A stretch of DNA of 64,000 bases from Ehretia macrophylla (taxonomy: Eukaryota > Streptophyta > Magnoliopsida > Boraginales > Ehretiaceae): positions 121,024,325 to 121,088,324 of the forward strand of contig CM075764.1 of NCBI GenBank assembly GCA_037974665.1, given 5' to 3'. Below, piece by piece: positions 7,067 through 39,008 of the stretch. A program made the translations under genes and the position numbers. The notes beneath the pieces are model-generated. The model did not search any database, was not told where the DNA came from, and was given only the letters and a program-made list of their open reading frames with translations. Position 1 is the stretch's first letter; each line of letters starts with the position of its first letter.

Positions 7067-7469
7067 GGTTATAATCGTCACGCATATACAACTCAAATGC
7101 GTTTCAAATTATCAATGGATGTTAAAAAATTAGATAGTATTTATGCATATACAACACTTGAGGAGTTTCAAGTAATGCCAAGTATCATGGGATAGAGAAA
7201 AGACATCAATAGACTACTTAAAACGACAAGAAAACGCAAACACAAGCGAAACTATGGATCCCTTGCAATGTTTCTGCATTAGCCTAACTTAGGATACAAT
7301 TCTACCTATGTTCCCAAACTCCAATACATCTGATTTTGGTATATAATCGAAGCTTATTGAATGTAGATAACTCTAGAATCAAACAGAACTCAATTCGGAG
7401 TTGAATTAAGTGAGATATGACCCCCGTAAAAACATTGCGCGAATTTGTCAAAAAATCCGGACAAGTCAT

Positions 7470-7555: not shown

Positions 7556-8414
7556 AATTTTATTCGACCGGATAGAGTATTTTACACACGAAATTGACTT
7601 GTTTTTGCTCAAAACTTAATTTTTCAAGCTCATTCCAAGTAGACAACTAAACTCAACCATAAACAACATTAAACCACAAGTTTTCTAGCTCCTAAACTCA
7701 TACAACTCAAGTACAACACCAAATCTTCTCAACATTCAACTTGGCACCCAAGTTCAAAACTCTATTTTTTTTTCTTCTTATCTACCAACAACTCAAGCAT
7801 ATCTTACCCATCAATTAATTCACATAACTAATGCCACAATATATCATAATTAACCACAAGTTCTAAAGGCAAGTTCAAAGCAAGAATAGCAATACAACCA
7901 ATTCTTGAAACCCTAGATGAACAAGCTAAGTTCAAATTCATGAAACAAGCTTACACATACTCATTATCATGCTTACTACACCTACATAACTCATCAAACA
8001 TACTTCACATGTTTTTACAAAACATTTAGAAAACTTTCCTCACCTTAGCTTTGTGATTGAATGCAAGAAATGGTGCTAGGAAGCTTGAAGTTGACTTAAA
8101 ATGCCTCCCCTCTTCCTTCTCCTTCCTTTTTCTTTCTTCTTTCTCTCATTTCTATGGTGGAAAATCTGAATGTGTGTAGTGTGTAGGTTTGTGTCGTGTG
8201 AGTGAGTGTGTATTAGTGTGTGTTTGTGTGTTGTAGTGTTTTAATGTGTGTGGGTGGTGTAATGTGTGTTGATAGATAATATCTAAATTGTCTAATGACG
8301 AGAGTGCCCTCCAACTAGATTGTGTTTTACTAGTTTGCCATCCTAGTGTTAATTTTAATTATCTTAGTTTTAGTTTAGTTACTCTAGTTAGTTCCAATTA
8401 CTAGCTACACGATA

Positions 8415-11615: not shown

Positions 11616-13190
11616 CTTAAAGGTATCACGCCCCGACCCCGACCCATCGCTAGGCTAAGGCCGAAACATGACGTTCGTAATACTTATTCCTGAGATTAAT
11701 AACTTAATGGTTTTAAAACCTGTGAGTATTAATTTGATAACCTGTACATCCATTATAAATACAATAAGAAGATTGAAAAGACTTCCAAAATTATCCCAAA
11801 ACATCAGCCTTAAAGGATTACATCACCCTATTACGTAATTACAAGACTTGAATTCATACATTCTATCATCCCGAACTTAGGTCTCATAAGATTAATAACC
11901 TAACTTAACTAGGTATCCAATAAACCAAAAGAATATTACGGCATAATCAGTTGAACAATTTACAAAATCATCTCTGTTCAACAAGAAGTTCATCTTCATA
12001 GGCAAGCACGTAGATCAAGTAGTATAGAAATCCATCACAACACATCAATATAGCTTGCAACCACATGGGAACTTGCTCGACTAATCGTCACCTGAAATTG
12101 TTAGAAAGAGGGGTGAGCTAGATCCTTACGTATAGCTCAATGAGGGTGAACAAGAAAGGTTTTCGTAAAGATTTTATCGTTTTCGCAAACAGTTGATAAA
12201 ACATGTCATGCACATATCCACGTAAAAATATGTCACACCCCAACCCGACCTATGGAGGCTAGACTAGGGTATAACCTAATTTTCACGCCTCAATTATTCC
12301 AATCATTAAACCAATTCCATTAAGGACTCCTATTTTATCATCAACCGATAAGCCTATTGATCTAATTCGAAAGTCTCATTTGATTAACAAGCCTAATAAG
12401 ATAACTATGTTCCGTTTATTTGTCAATCCCTTTTACGCGAGTACCTATTATCCTTTAGCCTATGAGTAAGTACCTGGGTAAGATTAGATAGATTCATTCT
12501 ATTTGATCTTTCACCTAATGCTTTAGTTGTCTATGATAGTTACTAAATTAAAATAGTGATAGCAAAATGACCAAATAGAGTGTTTGTCTAGTTATAATCA
12601 GTACAAGCCAAAATTAGACCCAAATTACAACGGGGTCATTTACATCAACAAAATAAGTAGTCTTTAAAGGAAACACAACGTTAACAGAACAGTCACTAAC
12701 AAGCAAGGCACATAAAGTACGTAATCACTCCAAGGAATCATCAACAGGCATATTCTCTTTGGATACCTGTTCCAAATCTTCTTCATCTATGATGATAAAA
12801 GAGGGCGAGTCCTTATGAACTCAGCGAAGGGGAATGAGAGATAACGTTTTAAAAACTCTTTTCTGGTTAATCTTATGAAAAACCCTTTTGAAAACATGTC
12901 ATATGAAATAAGCAAGTTCATAACATAACATAAATATAAATGAACACATTTACCCGTCTTTCCTCCCCGAGGTCCTTTAGGAACCAAGTGAGAGTACTTA
13001 AACACATAGTGAAAAGGATACGGTGATACGTACAGGACTCTAGAGGTGGCTCCTACGGGCTCAAGAGGTAGCTCCCACCACTTTTAGGTGTAGTACTTTA
13101 CCCCGCATAGCACTTAGTTCCTGCCGTTCAAGTTCATTTCCGATAACCATTGTTGTAGCCGGCATCGATCAACCACTTATCACTCCAACG

Positions 13191-13609
13191 GGTGTACTCC
13201 GGATGTACACCAAACCTATGACCCAACTCTCCGAGGAAGTCTAGCCCCCAAGCGAGAGAGGGAATTGGACCATGGTAGTCACGCCAATACACCGGCAAGC
13301 CCGATGCCGCCCGGAGTGACGCGAACGCTACCATGCCAAAATAAAAGGTTGCAACCTTGTATGCAATGCACATTTATGCCATTTAACATTTCACATTAGG
13401 AGGACAACAAAGTAGGTTGTCTCCGAGCAAGTTTATGATCACATTTTGACATATTGGCATATAAGGCATTGTAAGAACATATAATCATTTTATATATCTA
13501 TTTGAAAGCAATTAAACTTTCACGGGCAGCCAAGTAATCATGTTCAAATAAGCCATTGAATATCTTTTAACAATTCACATTAGGAGGTCAACAAAGTAGG
13601 TTGCCTCCC
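13191..13609 (-). other. Conserved multi-hairpin LTR module in LTR-B
   Basis: Read on the minus strand: H1 occurs twice (13583-13609 and 13399-13424), both with loop CTACTTT; then the box GGTTGCAACC near 13346; H2 at 13271-13335, CATGGTAG/CTACCATG enclosing CCGG-loop-CCGG with the 15-base loop at 13296-13310; and H3 at 13191-13211, GGTGTAC-ATCCGGA-GTACACC. Stem sequences differ from the other families while loops are kept. Confidence 0.75.
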
Positions 13610-13740
13610 GATACACGTATGATCACATATCGACAAGTCAACATACGAGGCATGCTTTGACATGTAAATTCACTTTGTAAAACACTTAGAAGTATATAAA
13701 CATTTAACGGGCAGCCATGTCACACATATAAAACAAGTCA
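13385..13740. repeat. Duplication of about 180 bp around H1 in LTR-B
   Basis: Two related units, each with TCACATTAGGAGG, the H1 hairpin, a GATCACAT stretch and CGGGCAGCCA(A/T)GT, lie about 183 bp apart. The duplication explains the two H1 copies in this LTR. Confidence 0.65.
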
Positions 13741-14519
13741 TATAACTTATTTTGGGTTCACATATCAAGTGTTAAGATCATACAAGCATGCTACGACACT
13801 TACACAAGACCGGGTGCAAGAATAGTTCACTTATCAACACGCAATCATCGAGTATCATACTTAGAGCTATAAAGACAATTCCAGGCAGCCTTTTAACAAT
13901 CCTCAACGTCAATTATAAGTCACACAAGAGTGGTTCATGACTTGGAAGTCTACGTGTCCATTAGGGTTTGTAATCGACATGCTCGGGTGTTGGTTTAACT
14001 TGCTAAGGACCACAAGAAACACTTAAACCATTTCAAGCATACTTAGAAATTATTGGACAGCCCACTAACCATTCAATTGAACACATTTAACCATAGGATC
14101 ATCACTTAGCAAGTATTCATAAGCAATAGGGCCTCAATTTCGTGCTACATATGCGATTAAGCAACAATTCGTCATGTAATTAAATCCAAGCCATGCATCA
14201 ATCAATTAAGCATCCTCAACCAACCAAAACAGCCCACACAACTTCTAATTTCCATAATTCCAAGCATTCAATACCACAAGTAAAGTTACAATATGATTCA
14301 AAGCATATTACCAAGCCAAAAACCTTACTGCAATGGTATGTTTTTCCTCATTCATTTAGCCAAGTAAATAACCTAAAAATTCAGTGAAACAAATTTCAAA
14401 TTGAAGCTTAATGAGTGCTTTAAATCTAGGAAGAAACCTTGCTGCATTTGGAGTTCAGACTTAGGAGTTATGACCAAAATCGTGAGACTACGCAAAACTG
14501 TCCAGATTCATACATATTT

Positions 14520-14905
14520 CGATATTTTCCATTTTTGAGACCTTTAAACTCAAAATTAGCGTTAGCCTATTTCTACAAAATATGTTCCGAACTGACAAAT
14601 CTAGTGACATAACAAATTCATGCATTTTTGACATCGTTTACTAGGCCAAAACTATTTCGTTCTACAAGGTCAGAAAGCTGCCAGAAACGTACTTCACATT
14701 TCCAAGTTTTCCAAATTTAGACACATTATGATATTTGACCATTTTGGAGGTCTTAGAGTCAAAATTGGCCTTGGCCTATTTCTGAAAAATATGTCCAGAA
14801 CTGACAAATCTAGTGACTTACCAATTTTCATGCATTTTTATCAACATTTACTAGGCCAAAAATAGTTCGTTCTACAAGGTCAGTAATCTGCCAGCCAAAA
14901 ACGTG
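14520..14905. repeat. Tandem duplication of about 210 bp in LTR-B
   Basis: Two diverged units share GATATTT...CATTTT, TTGGCCTATTTCT-like text, GAACTGACAAATCTAGTGAC, TTTACTAGGCCAAAA and CGTTCTACAAGGTCAG. It is non-coding. Confidence 0.7.
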
Positions 14906-15959
14906 GTTACATATCTTCAAGTTTCTAGCCATTATCAAGCCATGCATGAGTAGATAGGCTCATATACACACATATACAATAACTACAGAGGTAAATATAG
15001 TCATATGAGAGCATGCATGTGAGTTTGAAAGCTTCTAAAAGAGTTTAACCCTCACCTTAGCCTATTGATGGATGAAAATGCAAGATTGCCCCTCTGAATC
15101 ACACAAATAGCCCTTTTTCCTTGCTTTGGCTGAGTGATGGCTGGTTTTTCCTTAAATCCTAGCTTAGTTAGCTTGTGTAGGAGGTGTGCATGTGTGTGAA
15201 ACCAAAAGACAAGGAAGAAAACCATCAAAACTTACCTATGGTCGAAAATGAGAGGTTTTTGAGCTTTGTGAGAGATTCTTGATATGTTGCTTGCTATGGC
15301 TGAGCTTGGAGTGGTCTTGAGAGTCCTTGAGAGATTGTTAGAAGTCTTGGGAGCTCAAAGGGCAGCCATGGTCGAAAATGGAGAGAGAATGGGAGAGTTT
15401 GAGAGGAAAAATGAAGTTTTAGTATGTGTGTGTGTGTGCTCGGTTTTGGTGAGTTGAGAGAGCATGTGTGAGATGTTTTTGGTGTAAAATCTGAATTTTG
15501 ATTGTATGTGGGGGCCTTGGTCGAAAATGAGGGCTAGGGTAGTGTGTGGTGTGTATTTTTTTTTATGCATTCTTGTGCTTTGTGTTAGATTAAAATATGT
15601 TTGAAATGTTGGGTGTAGTATCTTGAGTATTATAGTGTTTTGTGTAGGTTTATAATAGTTTATTGGTTAGTTGAGTGTGTTAGGAAGAGTAGAATATTTT
15701 ACTAGTTAGTGGGTTTTGTAGGAAAATGTGATTAGGTATATTATATTGGGGATGGTTTGGGTGATGATAGGATTTTGTCTTGTAGTGAATTTGAATTAGG
15801 ATTAAAATAATGTTAGTGGAATGTTTAGGAATAGTTTAATGTTATTTTATAGTTAGTGGAGTTTGTCGGATTTGAATTAGGGAATTTAATATTGGTTAAT
15901 GGATTGTGTAGGATTATTTTATTGTCTAGTGCTTTGTGCAGGAATCTTTATTGATTAGC

Positions 15960-16340
15960 GTGCAGGCACGCTTTCCTAGGTCTATGACACGCGCTACGAG
16001 GTAAGACACACACTTCAAGGCAAATGCACAGATTCCAAGGTAAATGCATGCAACCCTAAGTGAATGCACGTAAACCAAAACAAGGCATGTAATTCAATGT
16101 AATGCACGTAAATCAAGGCACAACTTTATATATCTAGGTTAAGGCACGCAGTTCAAGATTAGGGTACACGAATTAAGGTAACACACGTAAATCGAGGTCA
16201 GGGCACACAATCCTAGGTCAAGGCACGTATAACGAGGCATGCACAAAAACCAAGACAGGGCACGTAATTCAAGGTTGGTTATATAATTCTAGGTCTAAGG
16301 CACGCAAATCGAGGTAAGACACGTTATTCGGGGTCGGGCA
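15960..16340. repeat. ACGT-core degenerate repeats at the LTR-B start
   Basis: Irregular 20-30 bp repeats carry GCACGTAAACC, GCACGTAAATC, ACACGTAAATC, GCACGTATAAC, GCACGTAATTC and ACACGTTATTC, alternating with (A)AGGCACG and TCAAGGT. On the element's strand they fill the first 0.4 kb of the LTR. LTR-A has a similar zone at the same place although the two LTRs are otherwise different. Confidence 0.6.
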
Positions 16341-16382
16341 TCACAAAATATCCTTAGCACAAGTCTTCAATTAAAAATGAGA

Positions 16383-16554
16383 TGGTCGAGATATATCGGC
16401 AAACCCAGCGGTCCCGTCACTTCCTCTATTAACAATAGGAGGGTCGAGATATACCGGCAAATTCGGAGGTCCCGTCACTTCCTCTATTAACAATGGGAGG
16501 GTCGAGATATACCAGCAAATCCGGAGGTCCCGTCACTTCCTCTATTAACAATGG
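16383..16554. repeat. Minisatellite in LTR-A2
   Basis: Three units starting GGTCGAGATATA at 16383, 16440 and 16497, homologous to 6889-7066. The 57-bp spacing is more regular here than in LTR-A1. Confidence 0.8.
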
Positions 16555-16955
16555 TTATAACCGTCGCGCATATACAACTCAAATGCGTTTGAAATTATCA
16601 ATAGATGTTAAACAATCAGATAGTATTTATGCATATACAACACTTGTGGAGTTTCAAGTAATATCAAGTATTATGGGATAGAGAAAAGACATCAATAGAC
16701 TACTTAAAACGACAAGAAAATGCAAACACAAGCGAAACTATGGATCCCTTGCAATGTTTCTGCATTAGCTTAACTTAGGAGACAATTCTACCTATGTTCC
16801 CGAACTCCAATACATTTGATTTTGGTATATAATCGAAGCTTATCGAATGTAGATAACTCTAAAATCAAATAGAACTCAATTCGGAGTTGAATTGAGTAAG
16901 ATATGGCCTCCGGAAAAACATTGCGTGAATCTATCAAAAAATCCGGACGAGTCAT

Positions 16956-17041: not shown

Positions 17042-18203
17042 GATTTTACTCGACCGGATGGAGCATTTTACACACGAAATTAACTTGTTTTTGCTCCAAA
17101 ACTTAATTTTGCAAGCTCATTCCAAGTAGACAACTAAACTCAACCATAAACAACATTAAACCACAAGTTTTCTAGCTCCTAAACTCATACAACTCAAGTA
17201 CAACACCAAATCTTATCAACATTCAACTTGGCACCCAAGTTCAAAACTCCATTTTTTTTTCTTCTTATCTACCAACAACTCAAGCATATCTTACCCATCA
17301 ATTACTTCACATAACTAATGCCACAATATATCATAATTAACCACAAGTTCTAAAGGCAAGTTCAAAGCAAGAATAGCAATACAACCAATTCTTGAAACCC
17401 TAGATGAACAAGCTAAGTTCAAATTCATGAAACAAGCTTACACATACTCATTATCATGCTTACTACACCTACATAACTCATCAAACATACTTCACATGTT
17501 TTTATAAAACATTTAGAAAACTTTCCTCACCTTAGCTTTGTGATTAAATGCAAGAAATGGTGATAGGAAGCTTGAAGATGACTTAAAATGCCTCCCCTCT
17601 TCCTTCTCATTCCTTTTTCTTTCTTCTTTCTCTCATTTCTATGATGGAAAATCTGAATGTGTATAGTGTGTGGGTTTGTGTCGTGTGAGTGAGTGTGTAT
17701 TAGTGTGTGTTTGTGTGTTGTAGTATTTTAGTGTGTGTGGGTGGTGTAGTGTGTGTTGATAGATAATATCTAAATTGCCTAATTACGAGAGTGCCCACCA
17801 ACTAGATTGTGTTTTACTAGTTTGCCATCCTAGTGTTAATTCTAATTATCTTAGTTTTAGTTTAGTTACTCTAGTTAGTTCCAATTACTAGCTACACGAT
17901 ATAATTCACTCATTTGCACGTTCAACGATAAAATGCACGTAAATTGAGATGAATGCACATAAAATGATTTAATTATTGCTTACGTCATCTAAATTATTCA
18001 AAAACACATAGTTGAATTTAAATACACGTTAAATGAGACATGTACATGTAAAACGATATAAATTTACATATTTCAAAATAAAAGTACGTGAATCAAGGTA
18101 AATACACGTTAATTGATATAATTGTATATTAAATGATGTAAAAATTTATGAAATGCTATAAAATGTACACGAGCTCTATACGGCCTCGGTACGGAGTCTC
18201 ACA

Positions 18204-20638
18204 CTTTAATTGTTGCATCCACTATTTGCGCATTTCTTATGTGCATTGCTTGTTGCTTTCTTTGATCACTATTTATTCCGTTTTTCAATTGCTTAATTAT
18301 TCTGAATTAGCATTTTTCTTAGATCATATAAATTATTTTAGGAATGAGAAAAATGTGCATTTGAGCGATTAGCGTTGAGAACATCCATTTAGAAAATGTT
18401 TTATCGAATCTAGTGAATAGTATTACGTAGTCTAATACATTAATTGAGCTAGCTACCATTTATTTGCACCTTGGAACTTAATTTTAAGTTGGTTTACTCA
18501 TGTTAGTAGACAATATTTGCATACAAACATAACATATAAACTTCTACACTTAATATTATACACATAACAAAATAAGCTCATAAAAACAAATTAGAAAATT
18601 CCATTTTTGTCCTAGCCAAATATGACAGCCCTATAGCATCCAAGGAGGAAGTTTTGCTTTACCAATCTTGCCTCTCAAGCTCTCTCAAGCTAGGATTAGG
18701 TGTTTTCAAGGGTCCTCTATCTCCCTATGAGCTTCTATGCACTTGTGGTGAGGGATTTCATATTTGTTTTGCATTTTAAAAATGTTTGCTCATTTCTTGA
18801 ATTTCTAGATTTGCTTGTATATAATTGTTGGATGCTCAAATGTGTTAATATATGTTGTATACAAGTAGTAGAGACCGCATTTATTCTATTGTTTCGTATT
18901 TTAAATGGTTGAAACTACTCGTTGATTATATGGCATGAATAGTGACGAGAATGTTAGGGTTTTGTGAAATTGGACTTTAGAACTTGAATCAAAGGTTCTA
19001 ATAGATGCTTTAGGTGCTAATGAAAGTAGTGTAAAGGCCCCGTAGGATTTAATTTCTCATAACCCATCAAAAGTATGAAATAGCCGACTTTTAGAAAGGG
19101 GTTTTAGGGTTATTGCAAATCTGGATGAAATTGGCCTTCACTTTTGGTATTCCTAGGCTAAGTAGACTGTAATTATGCTTTGCTAGCTTCCATTTGAGTC
19201 CTGGTTGAGGTACGTGCAGTACAAAGTCAAAAGTGGGAATTTGGGGCTTTCGGGCTAAATGCGGGTGTTTGCGTGATTTCGAGGGTCCTAAAGGTGTCTA
19301 AGGGGTTAACTAGAAGCATTGTATAGGCCGCGTGCTAATATAGAACCATAGCATGAGTTTGAAAGGAAAATGGGTTAGGTTAGAAAGGGGTTTAAGTACA
19401 AATTCGATTGTCTCACGCTTCTAAGACCTTGGCATGACTCCTTGTGTGTTTAAATATGGTTTCAAGTTGTTTTGGAGCTTTTGGTATAGTTAAATGTGTA
19501 TCTTGAATAACCCCCTTTGTAAATCTCTTAATTGCTTATATGAAACTGCTTCCTTTCTAACTGTTTCAAGGACAACCTACTTTGTTGATCCTCCCTCGTG
19601 TTATTGCTTATATTGTTGATATTGTCTTACCATTGATAAGTGCATTGCATGGTAGTTGCACAATCATAGTGTTAGGGGCGGTTGTATTGAATATCGGCTG
19701 GGCGGCGGCGGGCTTGCTAGTGGATATTCGATCTCCGTACCCTATTCCCTCACTCGCCTGGTCCGGAGATTGCCAGGGGGTGTTGGGTCGTAGGAATATC
19801 AGGATACATCCGGAGTACACCCACTGGAGTGATTGGGAATTTGCCGGCATTGATCGTGGTTCGTGATCGAAGACAAGAGAACTCTGGAGTGTTGGGATTA
19901 AGTGTATCGTATCCTTTGTTATATGTGGTTATTTACTATTTAAAGTGTACTTTGCTTGCCTTTTTTGTTTAACTGTTGTATTTGATGCATTGCACGTCCC
20001 GATTGGCCTTTATCCCTCACTAGGAAATAGTGGTTGCTCATACCTCGCTAACATATTTCAGGAGACGCTGTGGGTGATCCCCAGCTAGATTTGGTTGAAG
20101 GAGAAGAACCGGAGGTTCAGACTGAACCATTGCCTTAGTTGCTGTGTCTAGTTGCCTGAGGTAGTTTATGTTCTTGTTGTTTAATGAAGAACCCGTTTGT
20201 TTACTTTATGTTCTATTTTGTAGCCTAAGTGCTATGTTTATGTTATGTAATTGCAAGATTGGAAGATGGATGGTTGTAGTAGTAAACTTGGAACCATGAC
20301 ATGTAATAACTTGTGTTTCTGCTTCTAGCAACTTTGCATGCTTGGGTATGATTGTTTTCAACTTCCAAGAATGTTTCAATGCTATCATGGAGTGGCATGA
20401 TAAGCGGTTTTGTAAAGATGTAAAGTTGGATGCATTTTTGTGTGAATCTAAACTATTGTATGTCTTAAGGCTCGGATGGCCTTGAAGCTTTGAATTTTAG
20501 TTAATTTGCTTGTCTTGTTATGTTGTGGCTTTATTGAGCGTTTACAGGTTTTCAGAATGTCTACGGTACAGGGAGGACTCTGTCCGTTTGTCGAGTCCAG
20601 ACTTAACCTTTAGTGTGGGGTTGGGTCGGGGCGTGACA
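18204..20638 (+). mobile_element. 3' LTR of G1, remainder
   Basis: Continues the LTR begun at 6213 and ends GGGGCGTGACA at 20638. Its last 1.19 kb is nearly identical to 1-1205, most visible differences being transitions. The first part also resembles the triple-LTR family (for example AGTGAATAGTATTACGTA and GTGAGGGATTTCAT), so the families are related. Non-LTR sequence begins at 20639. Confidence 0.88.
19568..20065 (+). other. Conserved multi-hairpin LTR module, G1 3' copy
   Basis: H1 at 19568-19593 (loop CTACTTT), H2 at 19690-19728 (same loop as the 5' copy; the inner stem keeps pairing through G-U pairs), H3 near 19802-19822 (loop ATCCGGA, weakened stem) and a decayed H4 near 20021-20040. 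TTTCAG follows near 20060. Confidence 0.65.
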
Positions 20639-22855: not shown

Positions 22856-23220
22856 TGTTGGGCCGGGGAGGCTAGCGATCACCCTTAGGGATTCGCTATA
22901 GTGGGGAGTAGTATCGGTGCTTGACAGCCCAGCCTGCCCGGGTTCTGCGCTGCCATAATAAGGAAATAAAGTTGCACCTTGGCTAACAGCTATAGCTTTT
23001 GGCGCAGTGGCAAGCGTTTGATCCTAAAAATTGGTATCAGAGCGAGGTCGCAGGTTCGAATCCCTCAGGTGTCACTGGGGGGGAGATTGTTGGGTCGGGG
23101 AAGCCAGCGATCACCCTTAGGGATTTGCTATTGCGGGGAGCGGTATCGGTGCTTGATAGCCCAGCCTGCCCGGGTTCTGCACTGCCATAATAAGGAAATA
23201 AAGTTGTACCTCGGCTAACA
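22856..23220 (+). mobile_element. TRIM element (LTR-internal-LTR)
   Basis: Two 133-bp direct repeats, 22856-22988 and 23088-23220, both begin TGTTGGG and end GGCTAACA and are about 90 percent alike by eye. The 99-bp internal region has a perfect PBS (TGGTATCAGAGC, 23032-23043) and a polypurine tract (TGGGGGGGAGAT, ending 23087). The size and absence of coding capacity define a terminal-repeat retrotransposon in miniature. After the second LTR a further internal unit starts (GCTATAGCTTTTGG..., split by LTR-C), so the element is a partial tandem copy. Confidence 0.9.
22989..23075 (+). other. tRNA-like Pol III promoter boxes in the TRIM interior
   Basis: TGGCGCAGTGG (23000-23010) matches the tRNA A-box pattern, and GGTTCGAATCC (23053-23063) matches the B box, 53 bp apart start to start. 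The PBS lies between them. No cloverleaf acceptor stem is evident, so this is tRNA-derived or SINE-like sequence, not a working tRNA gene. Whether Pol III transcribes it is unknown. Confidence 0.65.
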
Positions 23221-23225
23221 GCTAT

Positions 23226-25911
23226 TGTGACACCCCGAACCCAGCACTTCATTAATTGCATTCATTAAATGGTTGACTTAGATGTAACTTAGCTAATTAC
23301 TTCATTTTTTCATATTTCCATAAATTCAACAGTTTCTTTTCATGCATTTTATATTTTTATAAAATACTATATATTTTTAGAGGACTATAACCCCTGACCG
23401 TGCGTGCATTTCATAGCGGGATCAACAGAAAAAAATTCGCGAAATGTTTGATGAATAGTACCAACGGGATTTTTTTCTAGATTTTTCAGATTTTTTGGCA
23501 TTTTGTTTGCTGAAATTTAATCACCCAAGTGACCCATTTACCCTTACTAAAATGTCCTATTTACTTGACCCATCATTTGACCATCTCATGAGAACATTAT
23601 AAGCCAAGAAACAAAAAAAAGGGGTAAAAAAAATGGCCAATAAAGAGTTACGGGAATAGTAATTTCTCAAAAAAAAAAAAAATTGCTCCTTGCTTCATTC
23701 TTGCTTCCATTGCTTCCCAAATTGGTTGTGCTTAATCTTTAGGACCTTAAGACCATTTTTTGATCTTCAAATGAGGTGAGGGTGCATTCCATTCTTGTAT
23801 TAAATTCAATTAAAGTTTGTGTTATTATTTTTGTGATCTAATATTGTAGTGGTTTAATGCTTGTTCCGTTGCTTCTTATATGCTCTAATGACTTTATATA
23901 ATATATTTGATGGTTTAAAATGCTTGTTGAATGCTTGAAAATGAAAATAGTAGTTGGGGAGGATGATTGAATAGTACTTTTGCCATGAAAATGACCTAGA
24001 AAATATTTTTGTCTCGGATTTCGAATTTCTCGCTTGTGTAGGTCCTTGGCATGTTATATTGACATAATGTGGAATAAAATTGAGATGCTCTTTGAGAAAA
24101 TCATGAAAACGGACCTATTTTAAGTCGGGGCCGAAAAACGGAGTTGTCCGTTTGCTCATTTTTATTTAGGGCTTTGTCTTAGTAGGTCATGGAGGCACTT
24201 CCCGTGAATTTATGGTGTCGGTTGGGGTTTCTGGTGATATAGCTCCTTTGTAAAACCGTAAGAGGGAAATCGGGATTTTTGGGTAAACATGGGTGGAACC
24301 GGGGTTTCGTAACTTTTAAGTGGGTCATAAAATGTCCTTGAATGGGGTGTGGGGTCGGTTTCAAGTTTGGTTATCATATGAGTTCATAGGCACATAATTT
24401 CTATTGACTTTAAGCATAATAGTTGGAATTGAGAGTTAGACTTGTGTTAGCTTGACATGTCGCACCATATGCTTCCTATATTGATTGTCATTGCATTTCA
24501 TAGCTATATTGCTTAGTTGAATGATATATAGATTGAACATTATTAAATGCTTATATGATGTGAACTTGGTTATATTAGTTATAAATGTTAACTATGTGAA
24601 TCCTCGTGATAAATATATATTCTATTGCATGATAGGGTTGATCCATTGAGTTGTTTCTCGTATCTTGGAGCTTGGTAAAGGTGAGGGAGTCTGCATCTTT
24701 TCTGTGTATTTTAACTTATTTTGTTGTTTCTAGATTATATTATTTGGTAATTGATAAAGTTTATATGTATTATTTACTTGCTATCTTGTATCTTTTCATG
24801 TTATTTGTGATTAACTACGAGGGCGACCTACTTTGTCGTCCCTCTTATGTGATATTTGATATTCTTGGCTCTCGTGATCTTGACTCGGGGTTGCGCAACC
24901 TTTTCGGATATGGTAGCACCAAAAAACACGGGCGGCATCAGGCTTGCCATGCTCCCTCGACTACCATGGTGCCTATTCCTTTTCTCTCGCTGAGTATACT
25001 CCACTAATCCAGAGGCGTGGTTCACCTCGTTGGGGCATATGGACCTACCTTAGGAGAAAGGATCGTAGGATCGGGGTACATCCGGAGTACCCAATTTTTG
25101 GAGGAGTAAGGGGTTTGCCGGCACTTGCTTGAAGATCTTGGCTGGTGGCTCGTGATGGAAGACAAGTGAAACTGTATCCTTTATATATACGTGATTAAAT
25201 ACTTGTCTAATTAATTTGTTTATTTGTGTTGTTAATGTTTTTATCTTGTTGCATCTCACGAAAACACACTCTGGTTTACTGCATCACCTCCTTCACTGAG
25301 TAACTTTGGTTACTCATTCCTCATTTTAAATGGTTACAGGAGCAGTTAGAATAACTACCTTGAGTGTCGTGTTGCTAGTTGCCTACCGCGCTGAGGTTGG
25401 ATGCCTACATGTGAATTGCGTGAAGTTGTTATTATATGATCTACTTTGAGGTTTGGCCTTGTCTGTATTTGTTAGGCTTGAAGGAGTTTGTGTTGTAACG
25501 TAAATTTTAAGATCGTGTTATTGGTAGTTGGGATGTAATATTTGAAAATAGGCTTTACCGCTTTGAATGCATGCTTGTGTGTTAAGGAAGATTGAATGTT
25601 GAACTTAATATATGAGTATAGCATGTAGTTAATGTTAGAGTATTATAAGAAGTAGTCTTTTGTCTCGAAGTTATAAAGACATGTCTTGCATGCCTGTATG
25701 ATATGCTTCCGTTGAGTTCCAAGGCTCGGATGGCCTTGAGGAATTGTTGTTGTATTATGGTTATACTTGCTTCTTGCAGGTTTTTTATTAGTCCTATAAA
25801 TAGGGGAGACTCCGTTCGTTTTTTCTAAATTTCGTGTCTGGGGTTTGGAATTAGGTTGAGAATAGAGTGTTTAATGGGAGTCCCAGTCTCGTGAGGGATC
25901 AGGGCGTTACA
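23226..25911 (+). mobile_element. LTR-C: 2.7-kb solo LTR inside the TRIM
   Basis: Begins TGTGACACCCCGAACCC and ends AGGGCGTTACA. Flanks are GCTAT (23221-23225) and ACTAT (25912-25916), a 5-bp target duplication with one mismatch; joining the flanks restores the TRIM motif GCTATAGCTTTTGG seen at 22989. No PBS follows and no second copy exists in the window, so it is a solo LTR. It carries the best-preserved multi-hairpin module (24819-25345). Confidence 0.88.
24819..25345 (+). other. Conserved multi-hairpin LTR module in LTR-C
   Basis: H1 at 24819-24844: GAGGG-CGAC, loop CTACTTT, GTCG-(T)-CCCTC. Box GGTTGCGCAACC at 24889-24900. H2: ATGGTAG (24910-24916) with CTACCAT (24961-24967) around the 15-base loop at 24932-24946. 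H3: GGGTAC-ATCCGGA-GTACCC at 25074-25092. TGCATCACCTCC then H4 at 25298-25315: GAGTAAC-TTTG-GTTACTC. Acceptor-like TTACAG ends at 25339. Confidence 0.8.
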
Positions 25912-30163: not shown

Positions 30164-32480
30164 ATGAGCTGTTTCGGCTGTTGTGCGGAGGATGACATGC
30201 AAAAGCCTGCTGATAATGGACCATACATGGCAAATAACTTCGCCGGTGATTTTTCACTACTAATCTGCATATTTTATTGAAGCTAGCTCATTGTATACAC
30301 TACAGTAAAAATAGTTTTTAACTGTTGGGTTGAAAGAAACAGCTTTAGATATCTATGGATATTAATGTATGAATTTCATTTCATAATATACATTAGATCA
30401 AGAGGACAAAATAATTGTGCTATTTGACACCATATCATGGTATACTTCATTTGCATCTTGTGTCATCCTGAGGAGTTTATGAAATAATCTTTCCAAAGCT
30501 CACTGAAGAATTCTTTTCTAGGTGGCAATGCAGGTTATCGTGCTGCAGAAACTGCGCCAAAGGACACACCGACATTACATGTCGAGCCCATTGCTGTAGT
30601 TGCTATTTCAGTCGAAGAGTTAAAGGACATAACTGATAACTTTGGTACAAGGGCTTTGATTGGTGAGGGATCATATGGAAGGGTATACTATGGTGTTCTA
30701 AAGAGTGGCAAGGCTGCCGCTATAAAAAAGTTGGATTCAAGTAAGCAACCAGACCAAGAATTTTTAGCACAGGTTGGTCCGGTCAACGTACTAACTACTA
30801 CGTCAACAAGTTAATTACATAAAACTTTTACTAATATTTCCTCAGTACTGTATTCATGGCAGGTTTCAATGGTATCAAGACTAAAACATGAGAATGTTGT
30901 TGAGCTACTAGGTTACTGTGTGGATGGTGGTTTCCGAGTCCTGGCCTATGAGTATGCTTCAAGTGGATCTCTTCATGACATCCTTCATGGTTAGTGATGT
31001 TCATTATTAACAGTTGCTTTAGCTGAAAATGAAACCTATCATAGAGTACAAGATGTAAGACTAGATGCTTGTCGAGAATTCTAGGTGTAAAATAATCTAC
31101 CAACATCAATTTCTTTCAGCTCAAGGACTAAACCAATAGGTTTTTGTCCTCCAATAATTTGGATTGGTGATGCATGTGAATATTTTACTGTAATTATAGT
31201 ACATGATAGACACTTGAGAGTTTGAAACACCGAAACAAATTTGATGGAGTAGTCCTAAAGGTCTATGTCAACATTTGCCAACAGAAACAAGTTTTTGACA
31301 GCAGAAGATGGTACTTTGCCTGTTTCTTATATTGGCAACCATGACTTATCAACACCTAATGAAATGTAATTACATGAATATACATGCTCCCTGCATTGTT
31401 CTGTCATAATTTGCCACTTTTTTGTTGAGTATGGGTATCATTAACATCCTTGGGTGACACATTTTTTCTTTCAACTTCTGTATATAGGAAGAAAAGGTGT
31501 GAAAGGTGCTCAGCCAGGTCCAGTGCTATCATGGGCCCAGAGAGTTAAAATTGCTGTTGGTGCTGCAAAAGGACTAGAATACCTGCATGAAAAGGCACAT
31601 CCCCACGTCATCCATCGTGATATTAAGTCTAGCAATGTCTTGATCTTTGATGATGATGTTGCTAAGATTGCGGATTTTGATTTGTCAAACCAAGCCCCTG
31701 ATATGGCAGCACGTCTCCATTCCACCCGTGTCCTTGGGACTTTTGGTTATCATGCGCCAGAGTGAGTTCCTTCTTATAACATTAGATGATTAAAAGAGAA
31801 GTTATCTACACATATTACGTTGAGTGGTTGTCTGAGACGTTTGATGTTGGGTGACAGATATGCCATGACTGGCCAGCTGAGTTCAAAGAGTGATGTATAT
31901 AGTTTTGGTGTGGTTCTCCTGGAACTATTGACTGGTCGTAAACCTGTCGATCACACATTGCCAAGGGGACAGCAGAGTCTTGTGACATGGGTGAGTAATT
32001 AATCGTAGTAACTTTTCCTTAAGAAAGTAAGTTTTTTTTTTTTTAAAAGAATTTCTCTGTCGCATGAACAGAGGATATTCATTTGATTTGCCTGAACAGG
32101 GCATTTCTTTTTGATTCTTGTTATTTCAAAATTGTTTGACATGCAAAACTGAAATCAGGCTACACCACGACTCAGCGAAGATAAGGTTAAGCAGTGTGTT
32201 GACGCCAGATTGAACGGGGAGTACCCTCCCAAGGCAGTTGCAAAGGTAAATCAGTAATAGGCCTACTAGACATTTGATTTCCAAATACTCTCTTCTTGAA
32301 GTTGCACCCACATCTCACCATGTAATTTATTTGCATCTTTTTGAATAGATGGCCGCAGTTGCCGCTTTGTGCGTGCAATACGAAGCTGATTTCCGGCCAA
32401 ACATGAGCATTGTGGTAAAAGCTCTCCAGCCTTTGTTGAATGCTCGATCTGGACATCCCGGCGAAACCCCAAACATGTGA
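30164..32480 (+). CDS. PTI1: Pti1-like receptor-like cytoplasmic protein kinase
   Basis: Phosphorylates Ser/Thr on protein substrates. Pti1 relatives act downstream of Pto-type and OXI1/AGC kinases in defence and oxidative signalling at membranes (family knowledge). Coding exons are 30164-30245, 30522-30772, 30863-30989, 31488-31761, 31858-31990, 32159-32245 and 32349-32480. All junctions are GT-AG with consistent phases, giving 361 codons, near the usual 350-370. The N-terminus MSCFGCC has cysteines suited to S-acylation. Kinase features: [11 protein letters not shown] (75-85), ATP lysine K96, HRD (196-198) with DIKSSN, activation segment starting DFD (216-218) rather than DFG, T233 in the segment before GTFGYHAPE, and C-terminal lobe [18 protein letters not shown] is also seen in Pti1 homologues as I recall them, so it is not damage. 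The start is supported by the MSCFGCC consensus. The next gene is convergent, stop to stop 1 kb apart. Confidence 0.95.
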
Positions 32481-33482
32481 CTTACAGGAGAGAGGGAACA
32501 AGATCATCTCATTCAAGGAGGTTAAAATCAGTTACCTCCTCCGAAATGTCAACATCCCATCCCCAAAAGGTCCGTCCTTATACCTCCGCACAGAATCATC
32601 ATTCAAACCAAGTGTGCCAAGTGGCATGACTCTGTTATATATTCTTCCCTATTTCTTCAATTGTGTATTCAATCACCCCTCAGTTTAGAATCTTTTGTTG
32701 TTCAAATGTCGATAGTAGGGTGTCTTTTGCACTTCAATATTTGTGAACGAGATAATCTTCTTAATTCTCTTGCAGAAATGGTAAAGATTCCTCCCATCTC
32801 AAAACATAATGGCATCTGGTCTCTTTCATCTCTAGCAGATTCTGTGATTTCCCCTTTCAAATTTACACTGAAACCCCTCCTCTCTTCGGTACTACTCGGT
32901 CCGTAATGACTATTTAGAATACGTCGTAAAGCAATATACATTTAAGGGTGGATTAATACACCAAACTCAAACACATCACACAATCTTAACAATCTTTTTG
33001 TTTCATGTCCATATATCTATTGCTCATGACTCAACTGGCGTTACAACCTAGAATAACACAAGCAACCTCAATGATTGGGCAAGAGTAAGCTAAAGAAAGC
33101 TAGAATAGGTGAATAATTAGCCTCTTCACTCGTCAAAAACCCATTACAAAAGTTTTAAGTATCACACTTGGACTGGCTTAAAAGAAGAGACGTAACATCA
33201 TAAGAAACTATAGGTATATCATTTCCTTCTCGTGATTGTATACTCTGCAAAGCTTTAAAGGAAGAATCATGGTATTCAACAACGCAAATGGGCATTGTGA
33301 AAACAAACTGGACATATGATTTACATAAACAACACAAATGATATATGCACACGTCACCCAAGAATTAACTAATACTACGAATGAACAACAGATAACCACA
33401 CAGCATTTTCCTTGTACCTAGCTTACTGTCAACTCATGCAAATTCGATGGAATAGTGATCCTCCAGATCTGAGGCAGCCAAT
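32481..33482. other. Convergent intergenic region with both 3' UTRs
   Basis: The stop codons of the kinase and SNARE genes face each other across 1002 bp. No other gene was recognised. Poly(A) sites could not be placed with confidence; no clean AATAAA stands close to either stop. Confidence 0.7.
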
Positions 33483-36400
33483 TTACTCAAAAGAACCCCC
33501 AGGTTTAATATACAAAAGTCTCCTAGTCGTAGGAGCTGGTGGAGCCAATCCAGGAATATCTCTGATGTCTTTGTTGTTGGGATTCACAATCTGGTAAATG
33601 TATGGAACAAAGACTAGAAATCAGGGGATGAGCAAACAAACCACATTTATTGGCACGTCATAAACAGAGTGCAGGACCAAAAAGAGACTATGGAGAAAAC
33701 CCCAACATATATACTAGTGTCAAAAATAGTTGGCCAAAAGCAAATCCAGCTATGAACAAAAGCAATATGAATATTACTAACTTGATGCCGTTGTAAATCA
33801 ACCCCCACCATGTCCTTAAAAGATTAATACAGTTTCTCACAGTTGGATGTACACACGAAAATACATATATATTTGGAACTATCTTGGAAAGGATTTTAAT
33901 TTTGTCAAGCATATCTGCAATTTGCACCCTACTAAAGCATTGAAAGAGGAAAAAGATAAAGCCAAAAAAAATTTACTCTCAGCCATATAGAAACTTAAAA
34001 AGAAAACGTACCTTCACAACAATTATAGCAATAACGCCACACACTATTAGAAAAAGAAAAAACATGATACATTTATCCGTAGCCACCTGAAAAGCAAGTG
34101 GAGTTACATTATCAAAAAGAAAATATAAACAAAATACACCATCAATCTTTAGGGGGGAACAGTATCACACCTGCCTCCCAATCTCCTTAACAAGTTGTGA
34201 TGCCTTCTTAATGGAAAACTGAATTGTGTCCAGTTCATTAACAATACGACCCATTTGCTCAGTCTGCCATGTTTGGTAGAAGAGATTACCTATTGTTGGA
34301 TTTTCACAAAGTCTGGAGACAATAAAGAAAGGGATGAATAGTTAGTAGAACTTACTTGGCCCTTCAAGGTAGTGGCAGTTTGGGTTCCCACTTCAATTGT
34401 TTGATGCACTACCTACAAATCAGTCAACAGCTCATCATAAAGAGCACTCTACATTGTATAATGACATTAGAATTTACCCATTACCTGCTTGGAACGTTCA
34501 ATGGCTTGATCAGTTTCATCCATTTTCTTCCTTCCAGTATCAACAAGCTCTTGATTTGACATTGCTACAAGAAACATCAATGACAGTAAGCAACTCTTAA
34601 ATAGTTCTTGAGAGTTTAACAAATACAACCATCTTTAATACCACAACCAGCAACATCTTCCAGTAGATGCAACGCTTGAAGAACCAAAAGGTCTAGAAAA
34701 TAATTTATAAGATTATAGTCGTGCCCTGCAAGTCTACATTCCCTACTAGAGCAGAGTCCCTTTCTCTGATAAATTAGAATGAGAATTCAATGAGCCAATA
34801 TTAATGAGTTTCCAAAAATGCTACAAAAGAGCAGCCTGGTGCATGACGGTCCCATTGTGCATGGGCTATGGTGGGACCCACTTTGGGTCTATTCTAGCCA
34901 ACTTTGCCTTGCATTTTTGCAAGACGTTGATAGAGTATAAGTTAGATTAGTTAGATATGCAGTGGAATGTACTGCAGTGAATTATGTAATAGCTGAATAT
35001 ACAACATTTTGTCAGCTGTAACTAACTTTCAGTTAGGACTAACAGCTGGAATTTAGCATGTGCTGAAATTCAGAACAAGCGCATGAACTCTATAAATACA
35101 TGTACTTGTGTCAATCTCAGATTAAGAAATGAAATGCAAAAATGTTCTCTCAATCTCTCTCTCTAGAATTTCTTCATGGTATCAAGGGCAGCTGATCCAG
35201 CGCCATTGATTCACCATTTTTTTCGAAACAAAGCTTGCTCAACTTGTTTCTCCTAAGCTATCAAACGCCATTGAAATATCTCAAGATCTCAAACTACTCA
35301 TTCAAAATCTGAAAAGTCTTGTTCAGATCAAGCTAGATACTCATAATTACCTCCTATGGAAGTCTCAGATGCAGATCATTCTCAGAGCTCACCAACAGTT
35401 GAGCCATGTCACTGGTGCAGAACCATGGCCTCCTAAGGTGCCCTCATCTGCAGCTGATTCTTCCTCCTCCAATTCATCTACAACCATTCCTGATATCAAT
35501 CCAGAGTATCTGCTATGGTAGCTTAAAGATGAACATCTCAAGGCATTACTTGTGGCCTCCATTACACCACAGGTACTGCCACATGTTCTTCATCTGCCTA
35601 CAGCCTCTTCCATATGGAACACTCTAGAACATAGATTCAACTCCCTCAGCAGACCTCACCTTCATCAGCTGAAAACAAAGCTTTACTCTCTTCAGAAAAG
35701 CACTAAATCAATGCAAGTGTACCTGGATGAAGTAAAGGCTATCACTGATAGTCTACTCTATGCTGGTGCATCTGTTCCTGAGGAAGACTTGATCCTCTAC
35801 ATCCTAAAAGGCCTGCCTATTGAATATGAGACATTCAGAACCACCATTAGGGTTAGGAGAGATCCTATTACTCTTTCTGAACTCAGCAACTTGCTCATTT
35901 CTGAGGAACTTCATCTCCAGCTACTTCATTCTGCTACTATTCACTCTTCTCCTTCTTCTGAACTTCCTAATGCCCTCTATACTAAAACCTCTCCTCTCAA
36001 GACTCAGGCAGGGATAGAGGTAGGAATAATAGAGGAGGGAGAGGTGGCAGAGGGCACAAGAATGACTCAAAGGGTTCCTCTATCAATACCAAAGGCTCCT
36101 CTGATACCTCAGAAGCCTCTCCTCATTGTCAGATTTGTGCCAAGCCCAACCACTCTGCTATAAAGTGTTGGCTCAGGCTGGACGTTCTCAATTACTCTAA
36201 GCCCAAATCAGACAAACAAGCTTTGGCAGCTCAACTGACTTCCTCTCCTTCACCTACTTCTCAGTGGTACCTTGATTCAGGGGCCAATACACACGTAACT
36301 GATGATCTCTTGCAACATCACCATTGCGCCAAGGTTTTCCTTCCCATGGATTCTATACATGAACTAATTTACCCTTGAGCACAAAAAGGCATTTATCACA

Positions 36401-38484
36401 TCACCATGGCATTCACTGATGTGACAATTCATAGAAGCATTCTGGAAAAAGTGCATCTTTGCCTTGATCATCTCAGCATATAAAACAATTAAAAAACCCA
36501 GCTACATGACTTCTTCTTTACCTGATGCCAACTGAACGTTATCTTCTTCCACTGTTTCACTAGAACCTGTTCCCATGTCAAAGAGTTCAACCCTCTTATT
36601 GCCAAGAGTACTCATATAGCTGCATCATTACCGAAAACGGCTAACAGTAAGTTCTCAAAACAGTTACCACAAAGAAAAGAAAGAAAGAATGTGGCTTTGA
36701 GAATGATAAAGAGGAAATAATGTTAAGCAGGGGCAAAAAATTGTTAATGAAATTGTTGCACAAACAAATGGATCCGGTCATTAGCATGATACAGTGGAAA
36801 TCAAATATTGTTTGAGCCATAGGTCTTAATTTTAGCAACCATTATTCCTCTAGACTCTCACCTACTGATAAACATATGGCTGAATATAGAACTTCAGTAC
36901 AGAACTATATGAGACATAATGGTTTTCCTATATTAAAAAGTGCCACCAAGTAACAGCACTTTAAACAGGAATCTTGCAGAGGACTTAGACTAAGAGAAAG
37001 AAAATAGATGCGTAAGCGAAAGAGCCCCTCAGACAATCCCCTTATGAATCAGAATATCAGTAGTAAGTCACAACAACATTAACTTAATATCAAATCTGTC
37101 ACATGACCAAAACAGCATTTTCGGGAAAAGATAAATAGATCAGCTTCCACATTGCACAATTCATGGGAGCGAATAATCGAAAAAGTAGGGGGAAAATAGA
37201 TTAACCCACGTTTTCCTCAAGGCCACATATGAATTTAGCTCCTTTATCTGCAAAATAGAAACGACTTGATGCAGTCAATTTCAGGGCAACATGACAATCC
37301 ACTGCAGGCACTAATTTCACCAAAGGGAATGGTTATGTTTACCACATCAAAATAGTCCAATTTTCTCAGGTACATAACAATAAGGAAAAAATGATGATGT
37401 ACAGTTCCAACATGGTGACTGTTAGCACTAAATATACTTTTCCAAAGTTCCCTCCTTTGCTTCTAAAGACGAGCCAGATATTCACCAGATTTTACAAGAT
37501 AGATTTTACAGGAGTGGATTCAACTCCCAGTCTTAAAAGAATGGGACATGTCAAAAATAAGAGATCTGATCATCTTCAAGAATAAATCCTTGTCTTGAAG
37601 ATTGTAATCTACTGAAGCTTTTACACTGATTCCAAACAAACTTACCATGGATTGCTTCTCGTCATTGAGCTTCTTGGTAACTTCAGGAGGATTTCTGCTC
37701 TCCTCGTCTTTGATTTCACGATCAAACTCTTTAATCAACCTAAAAGAATGATATGATCATTAATTATTCAGAGCATGTTATACACAAGAAACACCACAAA
37801 AGGAAAGTAGAATTATCATCTTTCATAATTCATCGAAGGAAAACGCATAAAGTAATACATGTACCTTTTACATTCCCTCATCTTCCCTGTAAGTTCCTCC
37901 AGCTGTTTACTTTGTCTATTGGAGTCTTTAATTTTATCCAGCTTCTGGAAGCCATTTCTAGGACAAATAGAAAACAGTTGGTCATTAGTAGGCAACGACA
38001 CTAATTAAAAGAGGGCGCTAGTTGGAACTTGGAAGTGGTAATGGTAATAAAAAGGCAAGCGTAGAGAGAAGACAAGAGAGATAAACAAGTCAAACATGAA
38101 AGAGGTATGTAAAGATATTACTCTACACATATAGTGAACTTTGAATGAACTAACAAGCGGCTTCTCGTATAAATAAAATGTGTTTGAAAGGGGATTAATA
38201 AAAGCAAAACAATCAAGAGCCATATCTAATCTTTTACTAACTTAACTTATCAAAACATGTAGACTAAAAGTACTACTAAACAAGAGCAAAAATTATAAAG
38301 CAATTACTGGGAAAGCATAAATTTTGAAATATATACAAGAAGAAGAAGATCAATATATCAAAGAATCAATGATGCAACTACAGGAAGAAAAAAAAAAGGA
38401 GAAGGAGAGTTACGCAAGGGCGCGGAAATTGTCACGGATTTCTCCATGTATTTGCTCCATTTGAGGCCCCATCTGCAACTCCAT
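33483..38484 (-). CDS. NPSN11: Novel plant SNARE (NPSN11-like)
   Basis: A Qb-SNARE of the plant-specific NPSN group, which mediates vesicle fusion at the plasma membrane and cell plate together with KNOLLE-type Qa-SNAREs (family knowledge). Coding exons, 5' to 3' on the minus strand: 38484-38414, 37957-37865, 37739-37646, 37247-37210, 36619-36522, 34564-34485, 34412-34356, 34263-34171, 34086-34012 and 33590-33483. The total is 807 nt, 268 codons, against about 265 in the family. The N-terminal helical part includes EQIHGEIRDNFRALANGFQKLDKIKDSN. The SNARE region is about 130-205 (MDETDQAIERSKQVV ... TEQMGRIVNELDTIQFSIKKA). A membrane segment at about 213-235 (IMFFLFLIVCGVIAIIVV) is followed by an unusual 33-residue tail, as is normal for NPSN. 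All splice junctions are GT-AG and in phase. Intron 5 (34565-36521) holds a copia fragment. NPSN13 is the main alternative name. Confidence 0.93.
34925..36380 (+). mobile_element. Truncated Ty1/copia element in SNARE intron 5
   Basis: A 5' LTR of about 252 bp (34925-35176) has TATA-like CTATAAATACATG and ends TTCA, followed by PBS-like TGGTATCAAGGGC (35177-35189). A Gag region follows (35300-36160: HNYLLWKSQMQIILRAH, LHQLKTKLYSLQKSTKSM, EDLILYILKGLPIEYE) with one TAG near 35519. A frameshift near 35990 moves the CCHC knuckle CQICAKPNHSAIKC and the protease start WYLDSGANTHVTDDL into another frame. Similarity ends near 36380; RT, integrase and the 3' LTR are missing. It is antisense to the SNARE gene and wholly intronic. 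Confidence 0.85.
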
Positions 38485-39008
38485 TCTGCTAAATTACTCT
38501 TCCTTCTTTTTTTTCTTTTTTTCTTTTTTATGTTTTTGTTTTCCCTTCTCTCTCGTGACCAAACCCGAACCCAAAACCTCCCTCACCAAGATAATGCTGT
38601 TAATTATTACAAATCCCCCCTTTGTTCAAATTTCACACCGGTGCTTGTGGGCTTTGCAATTTTGTGCAAGAAAAAAGGAAAATTTTTATTAATTTGGAAA
38701 ATTGGACAAGAGAATGGAATTTGAGATGGTTTAGGGTTCTTGTTGTTAGTTGATGCCCAAAGGGGTAAAAATAAAGGAAGAATTTGGCTCTGTTAGTTTG
38801 CTGGAAAATATTTTTTTATATTTGGTAATACTAAAACATTATTTAACTAAAAAATATTATTTAATAAAAAATAATGGTTATTTTTGCTCAATTTTCATTA
38901 ATTAATTAAAAAATATTTTTTCAATCAAATATTACAATTAGTACAAAGTTTAAAAAAGTATTTGCATATCTTTTGAGATAATAAAATATTTTTTGAAACT
39001 CACACACT
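38485..39008. other. Upstream region of the SNARE gene
   Basis: Holds the 5' UTR and presumably the promoter of the minus-strand SNARE gene. A T-rich/CT-rich tract at about 38496-38560 reads as A/GA-rich leader on the coding strand. No TATA box can be assigned with confidence. The Cop-1 LTR edge lies only about 0.5 kb upstream of the start codon. Confidence 0.55.

Follow-up and report, generated by a model that had tools for sequence, protein, structure and literature searches.

Folded RNA elements in or close to the long terminal repeat (LTR) of a retroelement are known from several systems. The Rex response element of human T-cell leukaemia virus (HTLV) lies in or overlaps the LTR and serves unspliced RNA, as does the constitutive transport element (CTE) of Mason-Pfizer monkey virus (MPMV), and the plant retrozymes carry hammerhead ribozymes in their LTRs. 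Retroviral dimerisation sites promote both dimerisation and packaging through loops with a GC dyad, and their loss lowers packaging, as described in the part of PMC12789967 consulted. In barley, the LTR element BARE1 makes an RNA that is spliced and translated and a separate RNA that is packaged, as set out in the consulted sections of PMC3735527. LTR models have also been built for several clades, with the residual conservation of long R regions tied to stem-loops; plant long-LTR chromoviruses are not among the clades named in the consulted parts of that work (PMC3601003). Here we describe an ordered domain, made of hairpin H1, a palindromic box and hairpins H2, H3 and H4, which recurs in long LTRs of Ehretia macrophylla. 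It was studied from a stretch of 64,000 nucleotides, called the window below (contig CM075764.1, the first contig of the assembly; C1:121024325-121088324). Its hairpins vary in a way that retains pairing, and the surrounding signals suggest that the LTR contains a spliceosomal intron whose 3' part probably holds the domain.

The arrangement can be followed in LTR C (23226-25911), an apparently solo LTR on the plus strand that holds the copy under study. Its ends were set by eye, from TGTGACACCCC, which stands immediately 3' of the second copy of a 138-nt repeat, and from GCGTTACA. H1 (24819-24844, loop CTACTTT) is followed by the palindromic box GGTTGCGCAACC (24889-24900), by the covarying H2 (24910-24967) with its 15-base apical loop, by H3 (25074-25092, loop ATCCGGA) and by H4 (25297-25316), all on the plus strand. 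Directly 5' of H4 lies CCTTCAC (25290-25296), which can pair with GTGAGGG if one G·U pair is included. Two donor-like G/GTGAGGG sites precede the domain, one distal (23775-23782) and one proximal (24680-24687), and an acceptor-like GTTACAG/GAG (25333-25342) follows it; the slash marks the putative splice junction here and below. H1, box, H2 and H3 were found in this order in all eight window copies that a sequence-only reading of this DNA had located, and the family is larger than that reading noted. Its placement of the domain roughly 0.8-1.4 kb before the LTR 3' end also agrees with the distance from H1 to the end, about 0.87-1.38 kb. It had given H4 to all copies but that in LTR B, but B has one (12807-12823, minus), and H4 is recognisable in all eight copies, although damaged in the second G1 copy. 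It had further denied the domain to LTR-A, which holds for H1, box, H2 and H3, though not for H4, present in both LTR-A copies. In the window, TACATCCGGAGTA with up to two mismatches occurs eight times and GGGCGGCRTCGGGCTTGCC with up to three mismatches nine times, one of these (59242) outside the domain, against 0.75 and 0.00 expected from dinucleotide shuffles; the H1 loop motif by itself is weak (16 against 8.7 expected). At E up to 0.1, a covariance model of box and H2 built from the eight copies gave no further window match.

Exact copies across the genome (1.58 Gb in 20 contigs) number 14,681 for the H2 loop motif and 3,340 for a 17-base H3 motif, and the reversed pattern gave none in either case. 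A search of viral contigs with one H3 pattern gave no match. Loci were drawn in two samples selected independently, 60 of the 100 places listed for the H3 motif alone (L009-L068) and 20 of the 100 listed for the H2 loop motif; all fetched loci are on contig 1 of this one genome, and the H3-picked loci lean to one stem type. The box and H2 model matched beside H3 in 57 of the 60 H3-picked loci (E up to 0.1, the weakest being L011 at E 0.077), and in the three others (L016, L023 and L027) the sequence immediately 5' of H3 is unrelated by eye. H3, taken as at least four contiguous pairs and at most two loop mismatches, was present in 18 of the 20 H2-picked loci, 17 of them having the exact ATCCGGA loop; L079 lacks H3 and L081 has the loop on a damaged stem. 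The H3 stems of these loci include GGGATAC/GTATCCC and GGGTAC/GTACCC, the commonest being GGGGTAC/GTACACC with a bulge. L030 and L039 represent a family with an H3-like segment, containing ATCCGGA or in L039 ATCCGAA, about 140-150 nt before H3, 5' of H2 and in the place of the box. A model of the domain would help to locate such LTRs where sequence similarity fails.

In H2, 15 of 17 pairs change on both sides among 66 distinct sequences, 84.6% of the cells are paired (69.0% in shuffled data), and a covariation score of 0.479 compares with 0.242 for shuffles, 0 of 500 of which reach the observed value, with slid structures scoring at most 0.101; the alignment behind these values was fitted to the structure and hence leans towards it. 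An arm-swap test, which needs no alignment, compared the 5' arm of a family with its own 3' arm and with the 3' arms of other families, using one representative per cluster. With clustering at 80% (68 loci, 8 clusters), foreign arms did as well in 10 of 20000 trials for H2 (8 families), in 0 of 20000 for H4 (8 families) and in 523 of 20000 for H1 (7 families, a weak result); at 70% the values were 121 (6 families), 71 (6) and 687 (5) of 20000. The H4 set has 64 rows, of which the row of B is wrong. The H4 stems of A (TGAGCTA/TAGCTCA) and B (GAGTTC/GGACTC) are unlike the others in sequence and are still paired. Because of the covariation, the arm-swap and the H3-stem results, H2, H3 and H4 are structures kept by selection, and H1 is likely to be one too.

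The strand could be judged from mismatches, since an A·C cell read on one strand is a G·U cell on the opposite strand. G·U exceeded A·C in the inner pairs of H2 (23 to 14) and in H4 (18 to 5), together 41 to 19, in counts that take related copies as they stand and lose some weight by it. This excess favours an RNA in the LTR sense, and together with the covariation it supports the earlier description of an RNA-like domain with fixed loops on exchanging stems. We give very little credence to a role of the domain as DNA, as a cruciform, a set of protein-binding palindromes or a hot spot of recombination or integration. By eye GGTTGCGCAACC and TCCGGA are indeed DNA palindromes, and recombination is evident in the T array and in LTRs B and C, which appear to be solo; yet as DNA both kinds of mismatch would be expected to be equally rare in H2 and H4, and near-invariant, non-palindromic loops on exchanging stems are typical of RNA.

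Two flanking signals were not mentioned in the sequence-only reading, GGTGAGG(G) on the upstream side of the domain and a YAG/G-like site on the downstream side. The upstream motif is present in each of the complete window LTRs (A, B, C, T and G1) within otherwise unrelated flanks, mostly as AG/GTGAGGG, as TG/GTGAGGG in G1 and as AG/GTGAGGA in A, and some families have two such sites, 0.95-2.6 kb and 336-441 nt before H3. The window contains GGTGAGGG 11 times where 0.96 would be expected; nine of these sites lie within these LTRs and two in apparent host genes (by eye). The exact GGTGAGG was found upstream of the domain in 16 of the first 20 loci picked from the genome, at 20 sites against 0-4 for six letter-permuted words. 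The 5' parts of the five LTRs share seven 7-mers, near chance overall (shuffle mean 3.6, largest 8), and GGTGAGG is one of them. On the other side, TTTCAG/G or a variant stands about 20 nt 3' of H4, the variants being in B, C and one T copy, and [CT]AGG follows H4 in 51 of 64 loci. Of 27 distinct GGTGAGGG contexts, 26 show a rise in U content, namely 14 of 15 distal ones (from a mean of 29.5% to 43.4%) and all 12 proximal ones (from 35.3% to 46.9%), against 207 of 382 control sites with GGTG but no following AGG (33.7 to 35.0%), which include similar copies uncollapsed. The U content falls at 14 of 17 distinct acceptors (36.4 to 28.8%). These steps fit the U-rich introns of plants described in the consulted part of PMC3735527. 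Measured from the first GGTGAGG, the putative intron of the five full LTR families in the window would be 1.3-2.5 kb long, with the same U step, and contains 23-82 ATGs.

The likely order of such an LTR would thus be promoter and exon 1 (the first 0.5-1.3 kb), an intron with the domain in its 3' part, exon 2, a poly(A) site and U5. The transcribed R/U5 leader, where the domain was formerly placed, would hold it in unspliced RNA, but the signals point to a putative intron that would be cut from the spliced leader. A role in translation, where a long leader left unspliced would rely on internal entry or a ribosome shunt and the GT and AG sites would be incidental, appears quite improbable. Unspliced, a stretch with that many AUGs would demand a by-pass, but U-content steps and site conservation amid unrelated flanks typify introns and are needless for internal entry. 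Only slightly less improbable is a role in 3'-end formation, in which the hairpins bring an upstream poly(A) signal near the site or govern the choice between the poly(A) sites of the 5' and 3' LTRs. All five full LTR families share the 6-mers TTGTAA and TGTAAT in the sequence that follows the acceptor, and the TTGTAA-containing stretches may be the poly(A) region; the seven shared 6-mers were, however, also reached as the maximum of 60 shuffles (mean 2.6), which makes this signal weak.

H3 has a 7-base loop with the self-complementary core UCCGGA on a stable stem. Most loci have a self-complementary box (GTTGCGCAAC in 31 of 63, GGTTGCAACC in 7 of 63), which is a perfect 10-mer palindrome in 39 of 63 and matches at 8 or more of 10 positions in 58 of 63. 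Since on average 27% of region shuffles do as well, it is the recurrence of its sequence and position that speaks for the box. TCCGGA also lies between H2 and H3 in 23 of 63 loci, and an intramolecular contact through this extra copy is possible. A contact of the H1 loop (CCUAC) with GUAGG before H3 was considered by eye and dropped; families with a CTCTTTT loop keep GTAGG. The donor sequence GUGAGGGA is complementary to UCCCUCAC directly 5' of H4; of 17 distinct combinations of proximal donor and H4, 15 can form at least eight contiguous pairs when G·U is counted. Covariation is uninformative for this helix because both strands hardly vary, and the invariance of the donor is partly a matter of selection, as the donor was found through its sequence.

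Among the functions that the sequence-only reading listed, packaging or dimerisation appears the likeliest. We propose tentatively, with slightly more doubt than conviction, that the domain is a packaging and dimerisation signal that tags the unspliced RNA of long-LTR Ty3/gypsy chromovirus-type elements, with the domain in an LTR intron. The carriers would be such elements together with coding-poor relatives, and the domain would act in cis on the LTR sense strand. An intron would run from one or more G/GUGAGGG donors to a UUUCAG/G-like acceptor about 20 nt after H4, and its splicing would free the leader of 23-82 AUGs and of the hairpins to give a translatable mRNA. The unspliced RNA would retain the domain and would be the sole form with an R region complete enough for reverse transcription; the domain would mark it for packaging and dimerisation. 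The AUCCGGA loop of H3 could kiss its counterpart on a second RNA, the palindrome of the box would also suit an RNA-RNA contact, and the near-invariant loops of H1 and H2 may bind Gag. A possible helix of GUGAGGGA and UCCCUCAC near H4 could hide the donor and restrain splicing, or join the intron ends. In its more specific form, in which the body of the LTR intron is itself the signal, occlusion of the donor sets the unspliced share and kissing H3 loops tag the genome RNA, the proposal seems doubtful.

The same location could serve another purpose. The domain may be a splicing-retention or nuclear-export element like the CTE of MPMV, which would release some intron-bearing RNA from the nucleus and have no part in dimerisation or packaging; we regard this as unlikely on balance, while taking it seriously. 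Its position between donor-like and acceptor-like sites and the complementarity of the donor to the segment adjacent to H4 agree with it, and the LTR position would put the domain at the 3' end of the RNA too, as for the CTE in the consulted part of PMC12789967. It leaves the self-complementarity of the H3 loop and of the box unexplained, however, and the domain matches no Rfam family.

Several points weigh against the intron and packaging proposal, in addition to the related copies left in the G·U counts and in the control sites. Transcript start, splicing and poly(A) site are inferred from sequence, and the candidate branch-point motif seen by eye, CTAAC, lies only about 11 nt before the AG, which is short for a plant intron. 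Four of the 20 first loci (L011, L012, L021 and L023) have no exact GGTGAGG upstream, in two of the 16 that have it (L016 and L027) it stands in sequence unlike the same LTR, and 13 of 64 H4 loci lack [CT]AGG in the searched stretch. Pairing between the donor and the segment before H4, compared outside the conserved block, shows no preference for the own pair (5929 of 20000). Not every such element needs the domain, since LTR-A does without H1, box, H2 and H3. The loop of H3, given earlier as ATCCGGA, is exactly so in five of the eight window copies and one base off in the first G1 copy and in the first and third T copies, and a further copy in L047 (about 5.6 kb) has the H3 stem with a different loop. 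Moreover, the domain copy of the 3' LTR would survive splicing at the 5' end alone, which weakens a strict tag of unspliced RNA.

The domain resembles the packaging signal and dimerisation initiation site of human immunodeficiency virus type 1 (HIV-1), mouse mammary tumour virus (MMTV) and MPMV in having ordered hairpins, one with a self-complementary, GC-containing loop, and in lying 3' of a splice donor, here a putative one, by which it is predicted to be lost from spliced RNA. Unlike the retroviral signal, which lies in the leader between LTR and gag, it is inside the LTR together with both the putative donor and the putative acceptor; no sequence relation is known, and dimerisation is putative here. 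Like BARE1 and BARE2, it belongs to plant LTR elements with splicing, which is predicted here; in BARE, part of the translated RNA is spliced, packaging uses an RNA of its own, and signals for dimerisation and packaging are conserved. BARE is of the Copia superfamily, its intron is 104 nt long and lies in gag rather than in the LTR, and a hairpin domain is not described in the consulted part of PMC3735527. The CTE of MPMV and the Rex response element of HTLV differ in that the present domain has no Rfam match. Retrozymes are likewise structured RNA in plant LTRs, but Rfam scans of the window and of 24600-25420 gave no hammerhead match. The domain has no Rfam match at the gathering score, and 24600-25420 none at E up to 1. 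Neither the domain nor a conserved LTR intron is reported in the open-licence literature searched, a scope outside which most subscription papers fall, in keeping with the earlier statement that no described counterpart was recognised.

Long-LTR gypsy elements occupy large parts of many plant genomes, and to our knowledge little has been established on how such elements apportion their RNA to translation and to replication. What is added here is a covarying RNA family, one motif of which has 14,681 exact copies in a single genome, in a predicted LTR intron, together with three predictions: that the leader is spliced, that it has a packaging signal and that two RNAs meet in a dimer contact. Thousands of elements share the folded RNA; if the predictions are right, the uncut RNA needed for copying would carry it, and the intron and packaging system would be an independent counterpart, located in the LTR, of the retroviral switch between donor and packaging signal. 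An LTR intron with such a domain could partly explain the kilobase length of these LTRs.

The layout of the elements was obtained from a self-comparison of the window and from reading of the sequence. Element G1 (+) has LTR pieces at 1-1205 and 18204-20638, and its interior (1809-5948) encodes Gag, protease, reverse transcriptase, RNase H and integrase pieces in Ty3/gypsy order, interrupted by stops. The integrase core is a weak match (E 0.0047, under the Pfam cutoff), SH3_Tf2-1 was matched, and candidate chromodomain-like residues were seen by eye; from the domain order we take the lineage to be probably of the Tekay/Del type. In L031 a protease lies downstream of a B-like domain. The domain in the 5' LTR of G1 (119-628, plus) has H1 at 119-144, box 205-216, H2 240-280, H3 352-373, H4 587-606 and TTTCAGG 622-628. 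That in the 3' LTR (19568-20062, plus) has H1 at 19568-19593, a box variant 19652-19665, H2 19689-19729, H3 19801-19822, the damaged H4 20021-20040 and TTTCAGG 20056-20062, with donor-like GGTGAGGG at 18747-18754 (plus).

Element A (minus), with two LTRs, is nested within the 3' LTR of G1, and its 2.9 kb interior has no frame of at least 60 aa on its own strand. In its LTRs, tandem repeats of about 58 nt (6860-7100, minus; 16360-16555) occupy the place of H1-H3 and are followed by H4 and TTTCAG/G. The undivided copy has H4 at 6739-6764 (minus), TTTCAGG at 6716-6722 and donor-like AAGGTGAGGAAAG at 8034-8046, and the second copy has these at 12114-12139 (minus), 12091-12097 and 17521-17533. Inside an LTR of A lies LTR B (about 12231-16345, minus), apparently solo. 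Its domain (12784-13608, minus) has two copies of H1 (13583-13608 and 13399-13424), box 13345-13358, H2 13272-13334, H3 13191-13211 and the H4 given above, with acceptor-like CATCATAG/ATG at 12784-12794 and a donor-like site at 15049-15056 (both minus).

The T LTRs (39474-42879, 43997-47385 and about 48504-51910, plus), each about 3.4 kb, are separated by two near-identical interiors of about 1.1 kb with a longest internal frame of 113 aa, and T is a tandem array of a coding-poor element. In the first (42005-42523, plus), H1 lies at 42005-42029, box 42070-42081, H2 42091-42148, H3 42252-42276, H4 42477-42499, TTTCAGG 42517-42523 and a donor-like site at 40045-40052. The second (46513-47029, plus) has H1 46513-46536, box 46577-46588, H2 46598-46655, H3 46761-46781, H4 46983-47005, TTTCAGG 47023-47029 and donor-like sites at 44555-44562 and 46322-46329. 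The third (51036-51555, plus) has H1 51036-51059, box 51101-51112, H2 51122-51179, H3 51283-51307, H4 51508-51530 and donor-like sites at 49076-49083 and 50844-50851, its acceptor site being TTTCTGG. LTR D (minus) ends near 62803, and its other end is beyond the window edge; it adjoins a Copia-type gene and by eye sits inside it. Its domain (63349-63859, minus) has H1 63834-63859, box 63780-63791, H2 63713-63770, H3 63590-63614, H4 63372-63390 and TTTCAGG 63349-63355, its upstream part being beyond the window end.

In G1, C, T and D a second T(A/G)CAG/GT site, possibly another acceptor, precedes the end of the LTR by about 90-135 nt (1108-1116, 20541-20549, 25773-25781, 42741-42749, 47247-47255 and, minus, 62897-62905), with a similar G-rich AACTC/GACTC motif after it. 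Short open frames with acidic ends follow the acceptor at about 628-705 and 63348-63276 (minus), in L009, L015 and L026 and also in B, and not in other families; a spliced coding sequence could end in them. We do not claim that coding is conserved 3' of the acceptor, the acidic peptides being in G1, D, B and some loci and the frames elsewhere short or different by eye. The 138-nt direct repeat before LTR C (22856-22993 and 23088-23225) flanks a tRNA-like segment with A-box-like and B-box-like motifs, by eye resembling a short interspersed nuclear element, and LTR C begins directly after the second repeat copy. The only Rfam match in the window, to snoZ247 at 35775-35906 (38.7, cutoff 38), on the same strand as the enclosing Copia-type gag frame, is probably due to chance. 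The regions 30600-32500 and 36500-38620 (minus) are host genes by eye, one a protein kinase-like gene with introns and the other with GGTGAGGG in its 5' flank.

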